Below, piece by piece: positions 6,376 through 47,776 of a DNA stretch of 64,000 nucleotides. A model generated the notes under the pieces. The model saw nothing but the letters and a program-made list of their open reading frames with translations, was not told where the DNA came from and ran no database searches. This stretch comes from Haloarcula laminariae (lineage in GTDB: Archaea > Halobacteriota > Halobacteria > Halobacteriales > Haloarculaceae), in contig NZ_JAMZFY010000001.1 of assembly GCF_025457605.1 (NCBI RefSeq), positions 62,001 to 126,000 of the forward strand, written 5' to 3'. How positions within the stretch are numbered: position 1 is the stretch's first letter; each line of letters opens with the position of its first letter. A program made the position numbers and the translations under genes.

Positions 6376-6463
6376 TAGTGCCGCTCCAACGCTCAACTGC
6401 TAGATACGAGCGATAGACGCCCTATAGAGAGAATCTAGCAGATCACAACTGAAGCCCCCAATA
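6376..6463. mobile_element. TA-ended 88-bp MITE, copy 2
   Basis: It starts TAGTGCCGCTCCAACGCTCA and ends AACTGAAGCCCCCAATA. The core CTGCTAGATACGA...GATAGACGCCCT...GAATCTAGCAGATCACAACT is nearly the same as copy 1 at 4621-4706. The two lie in direct orientation about 1.75 kb apart and flank the IS630 element and the SpoIIAA-like gene. The right end is 13 bp from the integrase stop codon. Confidence 0.8.
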
Positions 6464-41575: not shown

Positions 41576-41663
41576 TAGTGCAGGCTTCCGCCGTGGACTG
41601 ATAGATATGAACGATAGACCGTCTGGAGTGAGAATCTAGCAAACTTCGATTGAAGGCCCACTA
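41576..41663. mobile_element. TA-ended 88-bp MITE, copy 3
   Basis: Ends: TAGTGCAGGCTTCCGCCGTG at the left and TAGTGGGCCTTCAATCGAAG read inward from the right, each followed by an inner segment close to the inverted CTAGAT arms. The core GATATGAACGATAGACCGTC and GGAGTGAGAATCTAGCAAAC is shared with copy 4 at 45779. Relative to copies 1 and 2 it is diverged but has the same length and TA ends. The surrounding 41405-41908 stretch holds no other supported gene. Confidence 0.75.
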
Positions 41664-41872
41664 CGTACATGGGACGAACTGCAAATGGAAATCGTGGGTG
41701 TATCCCGGAAGCCGAATTGTCTGGTTCCTCTACGCAAGTGTCGCTCTCAACGAACTTCGACAAGACTTGTCGTCCAAGTGTACACGCTTCGTCACAAATT
41801 CGACTCACGGATGAAGAGTACGAACAGCGGAAGAATGCTCTCGAACGAGATATATAAGTGGATTGGACGTGA
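41664..41872. other. Intergenic stretch with a short unassigned ORF
   Basis: A frame at 41669-41857 (62 codons) starts right after the MITE and contains RLTDEEYEQRKNALERDI, a plausible helical end. The first half is Ser/Asn-rich and unlike known families. It may be the tail of a gene disrupted by the MITE. I see no stronger case. Confidence 0.3.
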
Positions 41873-41887
41873 CAAATTATAAATTTG
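41873..41887. promoter_or_regulatory. Palindrome CAAATT-ATA-AATTTG before the DtxR-family gene
   Basis: The arms CAAATT and AATTTG are exact inverted repeats with a 3-bp spacer, ending 21 bp upstream of the regulator start codon. GTCTAAT follows at once (41894), and the same GTCTAAT occurs in the oxidase gene promoter (42633). This fits an autoregulatory operator overlapping the core promoter. Confidence 0.45.
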
Positions 41888-41908
41888 CTCGTGTCTAATC
41901 CATTTCCA

Positions 41909-42574
41909 ATGTTGAGCGCGATCATGGAAGATTATCTCAAAGCGATCTATTATCTGCAGAGCAAAACCGCTGAGCGGGTACGGACGTCGGATCTTGCGGA
42001 GTATATGGGCGTAGAACAATCGTCGGTTACCAGTATGATGAAAAAATTGGCGGAGCGTGATCTCGTGCAGTACGAACCCTATCAGGGAGTCAGAGTCACC
42101 GAAAATGGAGTTCCTATTGCTCTCGAAATCATTCGCCATCACCGGCTGTTGGAACGATATCTGACGGACCACCTCGAATATGATTGGACGGAGGTACACG
42201 ACGAAGCAGATCGCCTCGAACACCATATCAGCAGTCAGTTCGCCGACCGGATTGCAGAGCAACTGGGGGATCCCACAGTTGACCCACACGGCGACCCGAT
42301 TCCCACCGCGGATCTGGATGTTTCGGGAGAGAAAAATGGTGACACGCTTGCTGATCATCAGGTAGGTGACCGCGTTCAAATCGAACGGGTCCCGGACAGA
42401 GATCCGGATTTACTACGATACTTGTCTGAACACGGGATTCAACCAGGAACGGTAGTGGAAGTTGTCGAAACTACATCATTTGGAATGGTCACGGTTGATC
42501 CAGAGAGTAGGGACGAACCTGTTTCACTACCCGAAGAAGTGGTACGTTCTGTATCGACCCGGTCCCTCACGTAG
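41909..42574 (+). CDS. DtxR/MntR-family metal-dependent regulator
   Basis: A 221-residue protein with the DtxR architecture. The N-terminal HTH is MEDYLKAIYYLQSKTAERVR, TSDLAEYMGVEQSSVTSMMK. The dimerisation and metal domain contains HHRLLERYLTDHLEYDWTEV, HDEADRLEHHISSQFADRIA with His/Asp/Glu ligands. A C-terminal SH3-like FeoA domain (residues 155-220) includes DRVQIERVPDRDPDLLRYLS and IQPGTVVEVVETTSFGMVTV. Such regulators repress uptake genes when Fe or Mn is plentiful. ATG 41909 matches the usual start. It precedes the oxidase-ZIP-cupredoxin genes. Confidence 0.88.
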   Translation: MLSAIMEDYLKAIYYLQSKTAERVRTSDLAEYMGVEQSSVTSMMKKLAERDLVQYEPYQGVRVTENGVPIALEIIRHHRLLERYLTDHLEYDWTEVHDEADRLEHHISSQFADRIAEQLGDPTVDPHGDPIPTADLDVSGEKNGDTLADHQVGDRVQIERVPDRDPDLLRYLSEHGIQPGTVVEVVETTSFGMVTVDPESRDEPVSLPEEVVRSVSTRSLT

Positions 42575-42605
42575 AGTGCGAATCAATCGCCCACTATTGG
42601 CTTTT

Positions 42606-42641
42606 TAGTTTAGACTCACTCAAAGTTTAGATGGGTCTAAT
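42606..42641. promoter_or_regulatory. Putative operator/promoter of the oxidase-ZIP operon
   Basis: TTTAGTTTAGACTCACTCAAAG is followed by TTTAGATGGGTCTAATTTA. TTTAGAC and GTCTAA are inverted arms, and AGTTTAGA occurs twice. GTCTAAT also stands in front of the DtxR-family gene (41894). The AT-rich end may be the TATA region for the gene starting at 42706. Confidence 0.4.
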
Positions 42642-42705
42642 TTATATGTTGGGTAGGTCAACTACCGCATATGAGTATCCGAAGGCTCACGCAGCGGAGG
42701 AGATC

Positions 42706-43965
42706 ATGCCATCGATAGATTACGACAGTGCAGCGGACGTCACAGAACGGCTCGAACAGCGACTGGTGGACTCACTCACCGGTGGAGCGAGCGTCAGTCG
42801 TCGTACAGTACTTGGCAGTCTCGGTGTTGCCGGGAGTGCTGCAATCGGACTCGGCAGTACGCGAGCAGGTGCTTCGACCGACCACGAGGACGAAGACGCA
42901 CACGGTAACTTCGGTGCGGTGGGCGAATACCAAGATCTGGATTTCGATCCACACGAGTTCCTCACCGCATTCAACACCGGAGACAGCGGGCAGGACAACG
43001 TTCCCCAGCAGGTCTACGAGGAGGGTGGCCGAACCGTTCGGGAGTTCGAATTCACTGCCGTCGATACAACGATTACCATCGCCCCTAGTGTTGAGTTCCA
43101 AGCGTGGGCATACAATGGCCAAGTGCCGGGCCCGACGATCCGCGCCGTCGAGGGCGACTTGATTCGCGTCAGATTCACGAACTTGGGGCGGCACGCGCAC
43201 ACGATTCATCCGCACCTGAAGAATCTCAACCCGCGAATGGATGGAATCCCCCAGAACGGACCGGGCGTCCTCGATACGGGAGAGTCCTTCACCTACGAGT
43301 GGATCGCCCAGCCCGCCGGCACGCACTTCTATCACTGCCATTCGCTCCCGCTGAAAGAACACATCCACCGGGGACTCTACGGGACGATCATCGTCGATCC
43401 GGACCCCGAACGGGTCAGGGAGAACCCACGCGACTACGTCAACTACCCCGGCCCGATCACCGACGACCTCCGGACGCAGCTCGTCGAAGAGGCGAAGAGT
43501 CGGAACCACGAGTACGCCGAAAACGACGCCGTCAACGAGATGGTGATGGTGATGAACTCGTTCGACACCAACTTCGACGGCGGCAACGAGGTCTACGCGG
43601 TGAACACGCGGGCATTCGCGTACGGGGTCGGTAGCACCGACGGCAACGGCAACTGGACGGCGGGCGAGACGAAACGTCCCATCCAGATTGACAAGAACGA
43701 ACGCCAGCGCGTGTATCTCGCCAACGCCACGGAGTTCGACCTCATCAATTCGTTCCACACGCACTCGCAGTTCTTCGACTACTACGACCATGGGACCATG
43801 CTGACGCCGACGCGCAAGACCGTGGACACGATCATGCAGACACAGGCCCAGCGTGGGATCATCGAGATCGACTACTCGGACCACGACCCCGGTCTGTACA
43901 TGTTCCACGCCCACCAGTCGGAATTCGCGGAACTCGGCTGGATGAGTTTCTTCGAGGCGGTTTAA
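42706..43965 (+). CDS. Two-domain multicopper oxidase (Tat-exported)
   Basis: A 419-residue oxidase with a Tat signal near residue 30 (SRRTVLGSLGVAGSAAIGLG). Copper-binding blocks are HAHTIHPHLKNLNPRMDG, GTHFYHCHSLPLKEHIHRGL (type 1 and trinuclear ligands HCH), NSFHTHSQFFDYYDHGTM and LYMFHAHQSEFAELGWMSFF. This follows the NirK/two-domain laccase pattern. It lacks a clear lipobox. Substrate could be Fe(II), Mn(II), Cu(I) or nitrite. Its stop codon is directly followed by the ZIP start, which favours metal oxidation over nitrite reduction. ATG 42706 is the likely start; 42631 would add a non-signal extension. Confidence 0.85.
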   Translation: MPSIDYDSAADVTERLEQRLVDSLTGGASVSRRTVLGSLGVAGSAAIGLGSTRAGASTDHEDEDAHGNFGAVGEYQDLDFDPHEFLTAFNTGDSGQDNVPQQVYEEGGRTVREFEFTAVDTTITIAPSVEFQAWAYNGQVPGPTIRAVEGDLIRVRFTNLGRHAHTIHPHLKNLNPRMDGIPQNGPGVLDTGESFTYEWIAQPAGTHFYHCHSLPLKEHIHRGLYGTIIVDPDPERVRENPRDYVNYPGPITDDLRTQLVEEAKSRNHEYAENDAVNEMVMVMNSFDTNFDGGNEVYAVNTRAFAYGVGSTDGNGNWTAGETKRPIQIDKNERQRVYLANATEFDLINSFHTHSQFFDYYDHGTMLTPTRKTVDTIMQTQAQRGIIEIDYSDHDPGLYMFHAHQSEFAELGWMSFFEAV

Positions 43966-45216
43966 ATGACGGATACCCCACATGATACGACGACGGACGG
44001 CGGTGTAACGACTGACGAAGAGATCGCACAGCCCCTCGGCCTCCCGCGATGGGTTTTCGCGTTGCTCCCGATCGTGTTGCTCGTGTTAGTCTTGGGGGTG
44101 TACGCGTTCACGTCACCGCTTGCCGGTGTTCAAAGCGGTGAACCCCTCCCCGACGTGACGGTCACGCACACGACGCTGCCAAGCGACGAAACGGTCGTCC
44201 TGCACGTGACGAATAACGGGCCCGAATCCGTGACGATATCACAGGTCCTCGTCGATGAGGCTTACTGGAATTTCCGGGTCGAAGGAGCTGGTGGCGACCA
44301 GACGCTCGCCCCAATGGAAAGCGCACAGATCGTGGTCCCGTATCACTGGAATCCGGGGTGGGATCTCGAGGTCGCTCTCGTACTCTCTGACGGATCGACG
44401 TTCCATAACACGATCGTCGCACCGAGTCAGTCACCCGGATTTAGCCTCAGTCTGCTCGGGACGCTTGCAGTTATCGGGCTGTTCGTTGGGGTGATTCCGG
44501 TTGCACTCGGGATGCTGTGGTTCCCCTACATCAAGACGATGAGCGACCGATGGCTGCACGCCGTGCTCGTGTTCGCGGCCGGTGTCCTGGGATTCCTCGC
44601 GTTCGATGCCGGGTTCGAGGCGTTCGAACTCGCCGAGCGAATTCCCGGCGCCTACGAGGGCAACCTCTTGGTCGTCTTCGGAATCTTTGGCGCCCTCCTC
44701 CTGGTCCAAGCGATCAGTGCGTGGCGTGAGGGCCGTGTCGCCGCCGGTAATAGTCGGGCGAGCAGCGGTCTCTGGATCGCCTATCTGGTAGCGGTGGGGA
44801 TCGGCCTGCACAACCTCGCGGAGGGACTTGCTATCGGGAGCTCATTTGCACTCGGACATGTGTCGCTCGGCGCGTTCCTCGTGATCGGGTTCATGCTCCA
44901 TAACGTGACGGAAGGCCCGGCAGTCGTCGCGCCGGTCGCCCGCGGAGAACGCCCATCGCTCAAACACTTCGCCGCGCTCGGCGTCATCGCCGGCGCACCC
45001 GTCATCTTCGGTGGCTGGATCGGGAGTCTGGCGTACTCACCGACGATCGGTGCCTTCTTCCTCGCGATCGGCGTTGGTGCAATCCTCCAGGTCAACTGGG
45101 AGATCGCGCGAATGGTTCGGGACGCAGGCGGTCGCGTGGCCAGCGCCACGAATCTGCTCGCGTTCCTGCTCGGTCTCGGTGTCATGTATGTGACCGACCT
45201 CTTCGTGGTGCTCTAA
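43966..45216 (+). CDS. ZIP-family metal transporter with N-terminal extracytoplasmic domain
   Basis: A 416-residue protein. After one membrane helix (VFALLPIVLLVLVLGVYAF), residues about 55-150 form a beta-rich outside domain (VTVTHTTLPSDETVVLHVTN, VLVDEAYWNFRVEGAG) of the kind seen in metal-binding or cupredoxin-partner proteins. Then come eight ZIP helices with the metal motifs GLHNLAEGLAIGSSFALG (helix 4) and FMLHNVTEGPAVVAPVARGE (helix 5). ZIP proteins carry divalent metal into the cytoplasm. The start abuts the oxidase stop codon. An N-terminal fusion of this sort is uncommon in ZIP proteins I know. Confidence 0.88.
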   Translation: MTDTPHDTTTDGGVTTDEEIAQPLGLPRWVFALLPIVLLVLVLGVYAFTSPLAGVQSGEPLPDVTVTHTTLPSDETVVLHVTNNGPESVTISQVLVDEAYWNFRVEGAGGDQTLAPMESAQIVVPYHWNPGWDLEVALVLSDGSTFHNTIVAPSQSPGFSLSLLGTLAVIGLFVGVIPVALGMLWFPYIKTMSDRWLHAVLVFAAGVLGFLAFDAGFEAFELAERIPGAYEGNLLVVFGIFGALLLVQAISAWREGRVAAGNSRASSGLWIAYLVAVGIGLHNLAEGLAIGSSFALGHVSLGAFLVIGFMLHNVTEGPAVVAPVARGERPSLKHFAALGVIAGAPVIFGGWIGSLAYSPTIGAFFLAIGVGAILQVNWEIARMVRDAGGRVASATNLLAFLLGLGVMYVTDLFVVL

Positions 45217-45240
45217 TAGGCACCGCCCGATCCTGGTACA

Positions 45241-45663
45241 ATGTCACGTAAGCTCTACAATCGGCGAATAGTATTGCGACTCGGCGCTGCGACTCTGGCG
45301 ACGCTCAGCACCGCTGGCTGTTTGAGCGGGGAGACATCGTCGACCCAGACCGTCACGATGCCCGACAACCACATCTTCGAGCCGAAGACCGCAACGGTCG
45401 AGTCTGGGGAGACGGTAATGTGGACGAACGAGAGCAACATTCAGCACACGGTCACAGCGTATGAAGACGAGGTTCCAAACGAGGCCACGTACTTCGCCAG
45501 TGGCGGCTTCGGGTCAGAGCGTGCTGCGAGAAACCGGATCAGCGAGGGACTCATCGCTCCCGGCAAGTACTACGAGCACACGTTCAATCAACCTGGAACG
45601 TACAGATACTACTGTATCCCACATGAGAGCTCTGGGATGGTCGGGACAATTCAAGTGGGTTAA
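45241..45663 (+). CDS. Halocyanin-like cupredoxin lipoprotein of the oxidase operon
   Basis: A 140-residue protein with a Tat-like signal and lipobox (STAGC) and a single plastocyanin-like domain. Copper ligands are His in NIQHTVTAYEDEVP, and Cys, His, Met in TYRYYCIPHESSGMVGTIQV. VTMPDNHIFEPKTATVESGE is the usual first strand. It starts 24 bp after the ZIP stop and would pass electrons to the oxidase or take them from it. It resembles the cupredoxin at 37462, but without the Gly/Pro tail. Confidence 0.9.
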   Translation: MSRKLYNRRIVLRLGAATLATLSTAGCLSGETSSTQTVTMPDNHIFEPKTATVESGETVMWTNESNIQHTVTAYEDEVPNEATYFASGGFGSERAARNRISEGLIAPGKYYEHTFNQPGTYRYYCIPHESSGMVGTIQVG

Positions 45664-45705: not shown

Positions 45706-45778
45706 ATGAGCAATCCCACTCACGTCGGCGAGCGCTTCAGTCGCAACGTCTCCGAGTTCACCGGCCTCGATATGCGAG
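45706..45778 (+). pseudogene. Short ORF interrupted by a MITE
   Basis: The reading MSNPTHVGERFSRNVSEFTG, then LDMRV, is followed immediately by the TA-ended element at 45779. If the element is removed, leaving one TA, the frame continues VTLVAIAA and stops after 33 codons. The start has an acceptable halophilic composition. I do not know whether this is a small gene, or the start of a longer one that has lost its 3' end. Confidence 0.35.
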
Positions 45779-45865
45779 TAGTGGGCCTACAATCGAAAGT
45801 TGCTAGATATGAACGACAGATGGTCTGGAGTGAGAATCTAGCAGTTCACGGCTGGAGCTGCACTA
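45779..45865. mobile_element. TA-ended 87-bp MITE, copy 4
   Basis: Left end TAGTGGGCCTACAATCGAAA(GTTGCTAGAT), right end read inward TAGTGCAGCTCCAGCCGTGA(ACTGCTAGAT): these are imperfect inverted repeats. The core matches copy 3 (GATATGAACGA, GGTCTGGAGTGAGAATCTAG). TA at both ends fits target choice by an IS630-type transposase. It lies within the short ORF above. Confidence 0.8.
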
Positions 45866-46553: not shown

Positions 46554-46922
46554 CTAGTTCGACCCCTGGCGACTGAGTTTCGAACGACGCTCTTCGAATT
46601 CCTCTTCGGTGAGGTCGCCACGAGCGTAGGCTATCCGGAGTTCCCGGAGGGCAGGGTCAGTGGTGGTCAACGATTCAGTCCGACCGGCAAAGGCGCGATA
46701 TAGGAGGTACCCAATCCCACCGAGAACGAGCACCCAGACGAGCATCATCCCGATGCCCCATAGTGGTGAGAAACCGCCGGCCATCCCGCCGTTCCACCAC
46801 CAGCCCATCATCCCCATCATCGGCATCGCGAACACCATCATCAATACCGGCAACAGGACGATAACTGCAAGGACCAGCAAGACGGCGCGGAGCAGGCCAT
46901 CAGAGGTGGGGTCGGCGGACAT
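46554..46922 (-). CDS. SHOCT-domain membrane protein
   Basis: A 122-residue protein. Two hydrophobic helices (LLRAVLLVLAVIVLLPVLMM, and LWGIGMMLVWVLVLGGIGYL) enclose a Met/Trp/Gly-rich loop (MMGMMGWWWNGGMAGG) that might bind Cu(I) through Met. The C-terminus is a SHOCT motif (ALRELRIAYARGDLTEEEFE). It starts 4 bp after the DUF302 gene stop, so the two form one transcription unit. SHOCT domains help oligomerisation of short membrane proteins. A metal role is an inference from context. Confidence 0.75.
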   Translation of the reverse strand: MSADPTSDGLLRAVLLVLAVIVLLPVLMMVFAMPMMGMMGWWWNGGMAGGFSPLWGIGMMLVWVLVLGGIGYLLYRAFAGRTESLTTTDPALRELRIAYARGDLTEEEFEERRSKLSRQGSN

Positions 46923-46926
46923 GCGA

Positions 46927-47328
46927 CTATCGAGTCCCGTTGCCGACTGTCGATAACACCCGTTCAAATCGGTTGCGGACATCTGTGGCAATCGAGTCGA
47001 GTGCGTCGTTGTCCGCGATGCCGACAAGCTGTTGTGGGTCGACAGCGCTCACGGTAACATCGCCATCATCGGTTTCGTAGACGATGACGTTACATGGGAG
47101 GAGAGCCCCGAGTTCCCGCTCAGCGGTCAGCCCCTCGTGTGCGAGCGCTGGAGTACAGGCGCCGAGGATGCGGTACTGTTGAAAATCCTCACCGAGTTTC
47201 TCCTCAAACGTACTCCGGATGTCGATATCACAGAGGACACCAAATCCCTCGTCTTCGAGCGCATCAACGGCCAGCTCAACCACCTGGTCGAAGTCACCAG
47301 CCACTGACGTTTCCATCGTGTAGCTCAT
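46927..47328 (-). CDS. DUF302 family protein
   Basis: A 133-residue protein matching DUF302: MSYTMETSVAGDFDQVVELA, VDALEDEGFGVLCDIDIRST, FQQYRILGACTPALAHEGLT, ERELGALLPCNVIVYETDDG, VSAVDPQQLVG. The conserved ILGACxPxLA and LLPCNVxVYE cysteines are present. The fold is a small alpha-beta domain that may bind a ligand or metal through these Cys; its function is unknown. ATG 47328 gives the usual N-terminus. It is cotranscribed with the SHOCT protein at 46554. DUF302 genes are frequent near copper and sulfur redox genes. Confidence 0.88.
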   Translation of the reverse strand: MSYTMETSVAGDFDQVVELAVDALEDEGFGVLCDIDIRSTFEEKLGEDFQQYRILGACTPALAHEGLTAERELGALLPCNVIVYETDDGDVTVSAVDPQQLVGIADNDALDSIATDVRNRFERVLSTVGNGTR

Positions 47329-47419
47329 ACGCCATGGTACAATTATTGGATATTTAATAGTAGTGTCCAGATGAAGCACGCGCGGGTACTGTGTCTGCGT
47401 TATCAGTAGGAAGCCCGTT

Positions 47420-47776
47420 TCACGCGGACCGTTCTAACTTTTCTCGCCGTCGTTCGAACTCCTCGTCCGAGAGCTCACCACGGGCGTAGCGTTCGCGTAG
47501 GACCTCCATCGAGTGCTCGCCACGCTCATCGTCTCGACGTGCCCAGAGCTTCCAGACGATATACAATGGGAGAGCGACCAGCATCGCCATCCAGAGGAGT
47601 CCCCAAAGCCCCATTGCGCCGCCAAAGAGGCCCCAGCCGCCCCCACCCATCATGCCGCCGCCATAGCTCCCGCCACCGTGGCCAGCCGCCGTTCCAGTCG
47701 TCGCGACCAGCAGCGGGATGGCGAGTATCGCGAGTCGACGAGCAGTTCGTCCGATGTAAGTGTTGAGTTGCGTCAT
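47420..47776 (-). CDS. Exported SHOCT-domain protein, Gly/Met-rich
   Basis: A 118-residue protein with an N-terminal signal helix (RLAILAIPLLVATTGTAAGH), a Gly/Met-rich stretch (GGGSYGGGMMGGGGWGLFGG), one membrane helix (LLWMAMLVALPLYIVWKLWA) and a SHOCT tail (VLRERYARGELSDEEFERRR). It parallels the SHOCT protein at 46554-46922, including the Met-rich part in front of the helix. Met and His in the exported segment could bind Cu(I). Its promoter lies in the 55-bp gap to the next upstream gene. Confidence 0.7.
   Translation of the reverse strand: MTQLNTYIGRTARRLAILAIPLLVATTGTAAGHGGGSYGGGMMGGGGWGLFGGAMGLWGLLWMAMLVALPLYIVWKLWARRDDERGEHSMEVLRERYARGELSDEEFERRREKLERSA

Follow-up and report, generated by a model that had tools for sequence, protein, structure and literature searches.

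A multicopper oxidase (MCO) and a ZIP transporter with an Ig-like ectodomain are encoded side by side in the window, i.e., the whole stretch of 64,000 nucleotides of the Haloarcula laminariae genome that was analysed, between a gene for a DtxR-type regulator and a gene for a cupredoxin. With roughly even confidence, this set can be read as a DtxR/MntR-controlled module for the acquisition of a divalent metal, most probably Mn(II), in which the MCO is the dedicated partner of the ZIP ectodomain. Oxidase and importer are almost never found apart in Archaea and Bacteria, which points to a common and uncharacterised way of handling redox metals outside the cell.

Organization of the operon

All four genes are located on the + strand between 41909 and 45663, and the order given by the initial annotation, i.e., a DtxR/MntR-family gene, an MCO gene, an abutting ZIP gene and then a cupredoxin gene, was borne out by coordinates and Pfam searches. 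The first gene (41909..42574) encodes a DtxR/MntR-type metalloregulator including the Fe_dep_repress (PF01325), Fe_dep_repr_C (PF02742) and FeoA (PF04023) domains, each above its Pfam cut-off; its score with the NCBIfam MntR model, 218 bits, is below the equivalog cut-off. The reading frame is open from 41885, and ATG 41909 is a more likely start than 41873 or 41885.

The second gene (42706..43965) encodes a two-domain MCO with a Tat-type signal. Its frame is open from 42631, and the annotated start, ATG 42631, falls within an operator; homologous MCOs begin with MPS(I/L)DY, which corresponds to ATG 42706 in the window MCO. The TAA of this gene (43963-43965) directly abuts the ATG (43966) of the ZIP gene (43966..45216), in which the Ig-like domain is encoded at 44155..44415. 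The cupredoxin gene (45241..45663) begins 24 nt after the ZIP stop and encodes a halocyanin-like lipoprotein (Pfam PF00127, Copper-bind, 2.7e-18). The same genome carries a second copy of the operon, 93% identical, on a 121-kb contig.

Imperfect inverted repeats of about 81 nt bracket the operon, the left arm (41584..41664) being 74% complementary to the right arm (45778..45858) and including a 43-nt stretch that is also directly repeated. A third, partial copy is found at 6396-6458 of the window. In the host genome, matches to these repeats occur solely inside the window, and none were found in 59 relatives; the repeats may delimit a small mobile element with the operon as its cargo. Adjoining the operon on the - strand (46554-47776) is a cluster of genes for small SHOCT-domain membrane proteins and a DUF302 protein.

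Pairing of the oxidase with the ectodomain-bearing ZIP

Across 391 haloarchaeal genomes, an MCO gene lies directly 5' of the ZIP gene, within 93 bp, in all 70 cases where the ZIP bears the domain, and accompanies none of the 62 domain-less ZIPs. Of the haloarchaeal MCOs, 70 out of 71 are paired with a ZIP, the lone exception being a partial MCO match on a stretch that contains a DtxR gene and no ZIP. The conserved adjacency in haloarchaea that had been proposed as a check was thus recovered, and the linkage proved wider than anticipated. Indeed, in the best 80 loci among 85,000 species genomes, the MCO is encoded directly 5' of a domain-bearing ZIP on the same strand in 80 cases out of 80. These loci belong to named genomes spanning about 15 bacterial and archaeal phyla, including Actinomycetota, Bacillota, Chloroflexota, Gemmatimonadota, Acidobacteriota, Deinococcota, Planctomycetota, Armatimonadota, Woesearchaeota, Thaumarchaeota, and others. 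The initial view of an archaeal system is therefore too narrow, as both domains of life are concerned.

The pairing is also present on 11 of the 11 inspected bacterial plasmids carrying the domain. In Nitrososphaeria, the MCO accompanies all 34 fetched domain-bearing ZIPs, a set that does not include NVIE_000590/000600, versus none of 16 domain-less ones, one of which was scored as such by eye, its domain match being separate and weak. The MCO and ZIP genes overlap or lie at most 20 nt apart in 90 out of 106 pairs. Such counts indicate that the four-gene arrangement is not due to chance, and the dependence between MCO and ectodomain is near-perfect.

The domain-less haloarchaeal ZIPs retain the first helix and the "SPFGD" joint, about 15 residues replacing the beta-domain. 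In the tree, they fall into a single clade (support 100), which clusters with the domain-bearing ZIPs of haloarchaea (98). Independent losses of the domain were therefore rejected, and the absence of MCO beside these 62 ZIPs probably reflects one evolutionary event, the cases not being independent; most simply, ectodomain and MCO would have been lost jointly and once. Distances among MCOs correlate with those among ZIPs (r 0.81) and, once the membrane part is accounted for, with those among ectodomains (partial r 0.46, permutation p 0.001), although Mantel-type tests give inflated significance when the sequences are related. The best reading of these sequence comparisons is that the Ig-like ectodomain would be dedicated to the MCO. 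A special role of this outer domain had been suspected from the window, and its occurrence only together with an MCO strengthens that suspicion.

The genes surrounding the pair are more variable. A cupredoxin gene is found downstream in many, not all, haloarchaeal loci, and in three bacterial loci a gene for a Rieske protein, a redox partner of another kind, occupies a similar slot soon after the ZIP gene. P-type ATPase genes (19 loci) and other heavy-metal genes stand beside many MCO-ZIP loci, and Nramp-like genes are found near the pair in four loci, one of them recognised by Pfam. In four loci from large Nitrososphaeria genomes, the ZIP has an insertion near model position 250, an MCO gene preceding it and a DtxR gene following it. 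On a plasmid of Paroceanicella profunda, the MCO and ZIP genes are separated by a Tn7-like gene set (TniQ, TniB, Mu-type transposase). Apparent MCO-ZIP gene fusions were discarded, as the long frames (up to 910 aa) are stop-to-stop frames 5' of the ZIP. One alphaproteobacterial ZIP turned out to be only a transposon-split copy.

Predicted structure of the ZIP and its ectodomain

In the AlphaFold2 model of the ZIP (mean pLDDT 88), an extra N-terminal helix (residues 28-49) precedes a beta-domain (64-150), behind which come eight membrane helices; this agrees with the extra outer beta-domain initially noticed ahead of these helices. In Foldseek searches, the membrane part matches BbZIP, a solved bacterial ZIP (TM up to 0.68 by target), so that model and search both place it in the eight-helix ZIP fold; the Pfam PF02535 score is 21.5 bits, under the curated cut-off of 35.1. 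The M1 ligands H282/E286/H312/E316 are kept in 107 of 107 sequences and correspond to H177, E181, Q207 and E211 of BbZIP, Q207 being replaced by His. In place of the BbZIP M2 ligand E240, all 107 have V, T, A or I, and the full binuclear centre is accordingly absent. In this mapping, every BbZIP residue that the literature names fell on the letter expected.

The ectodomain weakly resembles Ig-like proteins, such as the ArlF/ArlG stator proteins, and PCuAC copper chaperones. Copper ligands, considered because of the latter similarity, were rejected, as no His, Met or Cys is conserved in the domain, which is therefore treated as an Ig-like fold. A fused MCO-ZIP model, folded from an in-frame read-through of both genes with 17 paired rows plus separate rows, reached a pTM of 0.51 and displayed no confident interface with the MCO modelled as a monomer; in reality, the MCO probably forms oligomers.

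Copper sites of the oxidase

The MCO consists of the Pfam domains Cu-oxidase_3 and Cu-oxidase_2. The T1 copper site is present in domain 1 only (H190, C236, H244) and is kept in 104-107 of 107 MCOs, the remainder being gaps; the HAH motif of domain 2 has no Cys. All eight histidines of the trinuclear cluster are present (H193, H195, H235, H237, H376, H378, H426, H428), seven being fully conserved among the 107 MCOs where letters exist, while H426 is changed once, to Gln. In 98 of 107 MCOs, Leu serves as the T1 axial residue, and Leu also occupies this position in Fet3p.

The HCH motif, i.e., a T3 histidine following the T1 Cys, occurs in 107 of 107 MCOs in place of the HCA of NirK, and the window MCO reaches 74.5 bits against 296.3 with the NCBIfam NirK model. 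An ordinary NirK nitrite reductase, the outcome that would have undone the initial proposal, was rejected, as the HCH and HxH histidines of the trinuclear centre are without counterpart in NirK. The copper sites are thus intact, as is the M1 site of the ZIP, and this conservation suggests that the MCO is likely a functional O2-reducing oxidase and that the ZIP likely transports metal via one main site.

Regulator and operator

A DtxR/MntR gene is found within 3 kb in 32 of 66 non-haloarchaeal loci, 23 of 41 haloarchaeal loci and near 17 of 24 domain-less ZIPs; for comparison, the host genome has just four DtxR domains in 3.7 Mb. In alphaproteobacteria, regulators annotated as MntR adjoin the pair. 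Promoter comparison revealed that nearly every haloarchaeal locus has a palindrome, WTTAGAYNNRTCTAAW, either exact or with 1-2 mismatches, 5' of the MCO gene, of its DtxR gene or of both. In the window, the exact copy TTTAGATGGGTCTAAT lies 5' of the MCO gene (42626..42641), a position conserved in haloarchaeal loci, and is followed by a TATA-like TTTATAT at about 42640-42646. A degenerate copy, TTTGCTCGTGTCTAAT, is located just 5' of dtxR (41884..41899) with 3 mismatches to the operator pattern, versus 0-2 at the matching place in homologous loci. Control by a DtxR-type protein, as first proposed, is supported by the operator and by the regulator genes neighbouring about half of the loci, bacterial and archaeal alike; we infer that it takes the form of repression. 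In three loci, the operator is immediately followed by a short leader ORF, the stop codon of which shares bases with the start of the MCO gene (TGATG); the two are possibly translationally coupled.

Exact operators number three in the host genome, namely those of the two MCO operons and one of a DtxR-GDT1 operon. A scan of 59 genomes yielded 71 exact operators, whereas a reversed control yielded almost none. The genes behind these sites encode ZnuA-type ABC importers (24), GDT1 proteins (15, of which 13 with DtxR), MCOs (15), ArsP_2 proteins (5) and short ZIPs (2); a further 8 sites belong to an RNA-binding/RNase P region and nothing was recognised behind the last 2. The operator is therefore common to genes for Mn transport, GDT1 being a Mn/Ca transporter family. 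The DtxR-GDT1 operon of the host genome (C1:1083162), widespread in the genus under the same operator, is probably the core Mn-export unit. In eight loci, the operator, often doubled, lies about 420 bp upstream of an RNA_binding (PF01877) gene, behind which RNase P p30 is encoded.

The regulon controlled by SirR in Halobacterium offers a parallel. On pNRC200, the operator, with one mismatch, is found 71 nt 5' of ycdH-zurA-zurM, at the promoter place matching that of other ZnuA operons, and published work reports that, in the presence of Mn, loss of sirR raises the mRNAs of these genes (PMC1779511). Unlike the window operon, ycdH-zurA-zurM includes no MCO.

The operator is upstream of the TATA-like element in ZnuA and ArsP_2 promoters, and between this element and the start in those of DtxR-GDT1 and the short ZIPs. 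Owing to this mixed placement, promoter layout does not settle the sign of regulation. Five ArsP_2 genes, annotated as "putative 10TM heavy-metal exporter", display the layout of the ZnuA importers, which calls their exporter label into question.

Proposed function and alternatives

Manganese is favoured by the operator common to Mn-type transporters, by the sirR data, by GDT1 and by the neighbouring Nramp-like genes. The ZIP would import the metal through its conserved M1 site, and the secreted type-C two-domain MCO would act in the same outer space, partnering the Ig-like ectodomain. With enough Mn in the cytoplasm, the regulator would bind the palindromes at the core promoters and turn the operon off. 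As a guess, the MCO could use O2 as acceptor to oxidise Fe(II) or Cu(I) that would otherwise compete at the mouth of the ZIP, leading to selective Mn(II) uptake, and cupredoxin or Rieske proteins could serve as its electron partners; such removal of competitors would explain why a divalent-metal importer needs an oxidase. In its boldest version, which we regard as doubtful, an oxidase-gated Mn importer would exist in both prokaryotic domains: the ectodomain would dock an oligomeric MCO above the entrance of the ZIP, and Fe(II) and Cu(I) would be oxidised there instead of competing with Mn(II), which would enter selectively. The heavy-metal gene neighbours, the missing M2 E240, the single clade of domain-less haloarchaeal ZIPs, the fused fold devoid of a confident interface and the induction seen under Cu limitation count against the favoured reading. 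The regulon mixes importers with an exporter family, so that uptake is a probable and not a certain direction of transport.

Copper acquisition, in which the MCO would oxidise Cu(I) to Cu(II) for import by the ZIP as proposed for ammonia-oxidising archaea, is unlikely here. This hypothesis is published and the copper response has been measured: under Cu limitation, MCO1 and ZIP are modestly induced in Nitrososphaera viennensis (log2 0.81 and 1.33, respectively; Reyes 2020, PMC7785015), and MCO1 rises in Nitrosopumilus maritimus (PMC12448741). The cupredoxin gene of haloarchaeal loci would also fit, but the neighbouring regulators are of the DtxR/MntR type and not Cu sensors, and in haloarchaea the operator is shared with genes for Mn transport.

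The initial annotation drew an analogy with iron acquisition by Fet3/Ftr1, in which ferroxidation is coupled to iron import. Iron sensing is possible for DtxR-type proteins, the regulator bears a FeoA domain and the T1 axial Leu is shared with Fet3p; however, a ZIP with an M1 site for divalent metals takes the place of Ftr1 as permease, the operator accompanies Mn-type transporters and alphaproteobacterial pairs adjoin MntR-annotated regulators. Because of the shared operator, iron is less likely than manganese, and we consider it quite improbable. A comparably low probability is attached to detoxification, in which the MCO would oxidise excess Mn, Cu or Fe outside the cell and the ZIP would act in efflux or salvage. 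The operator 5' of the GDT1 exporter family and of ArsP_2 "putative exporter" genes, the frequent P-type ATPase, CDF and CopC neighbours and the many plasmid copies are compatible with such a role, whereas ZIPs are importers and the MCO operator overlaps or adjoins the TATA-like element, a placement suggestive of metal-dependent repression. Finally, a NirK nitrite reductase or phenol oxidase merely co-transcribed with an unrelated transporter is highly improbable, as the distant NirK similarity is outweighed by the HCH motif, the eight conserved cluster histidines and a pairing near-invariant across phyla.

Comparison with known systems

Two relatives of the window MCO have been solved as isolated enzymes, and their entry titles name no ZIP partner: the dodecameric MCO of M. 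hydrothermalis (PDB 7rab/7rac; 54% identity, TM 0.96 in the structure search) and 3gdc (41-42% identity, TM 0.90). The MCO has a close relative of solved structure, and the isolated ectodomain is a clear target for interaction work. Compared with BbZIP and the ZIP family (SLC39), the window ZIP has the same eight-helix fold and M1 site but an extra helix and an Ig-like domain, lacks M2 E240 and scores below the Pfam cut-off. The fungal Fet3-Ftr1 system likewise joins an outer multicopper oxidase to a metal permease; it differs in its permease, Ftr1 instead of a ZIP, and likely in its metal, and the window oxidase is two-domain.

The closest known system is the MCO1-ZIP pair of ammonia-oxidising archaea, made of the same two families in the same order (Kerou 2016, through later citation; PMC7785015; Herbold 2017, PMC5767755), for which a Fet3-like copper-uptake hypothesis was put forward (PMC7785015; PMC5767755; PMC7819960). 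The combination, initially thought to be undescribed, is thus already published for these organisms. The A1/A2 models match both genes, adjacent to each other, in 34 of 34 fetched Nitrososphaeria loci, the Ig-like domain being present and a DtxR gene sometimes so. In the open-access literature that was searched, no paper was found on the bacterial or haloarchaeal MCO-ZIP, its regulator or its ectodomain. Whereas the MCO1-ZIP literature is thaumarchaeal and copper-related, the system analysed here extends to Bacteria and haloarchaea, with an ectodomain that depends on the MCO and a Mn-type operator; the wide distribution, this dependence and the Mn regulon seem to be novel, and the operator makes the copper-uptake idea for ammonia-oxidising archaea directly testable against manganese.
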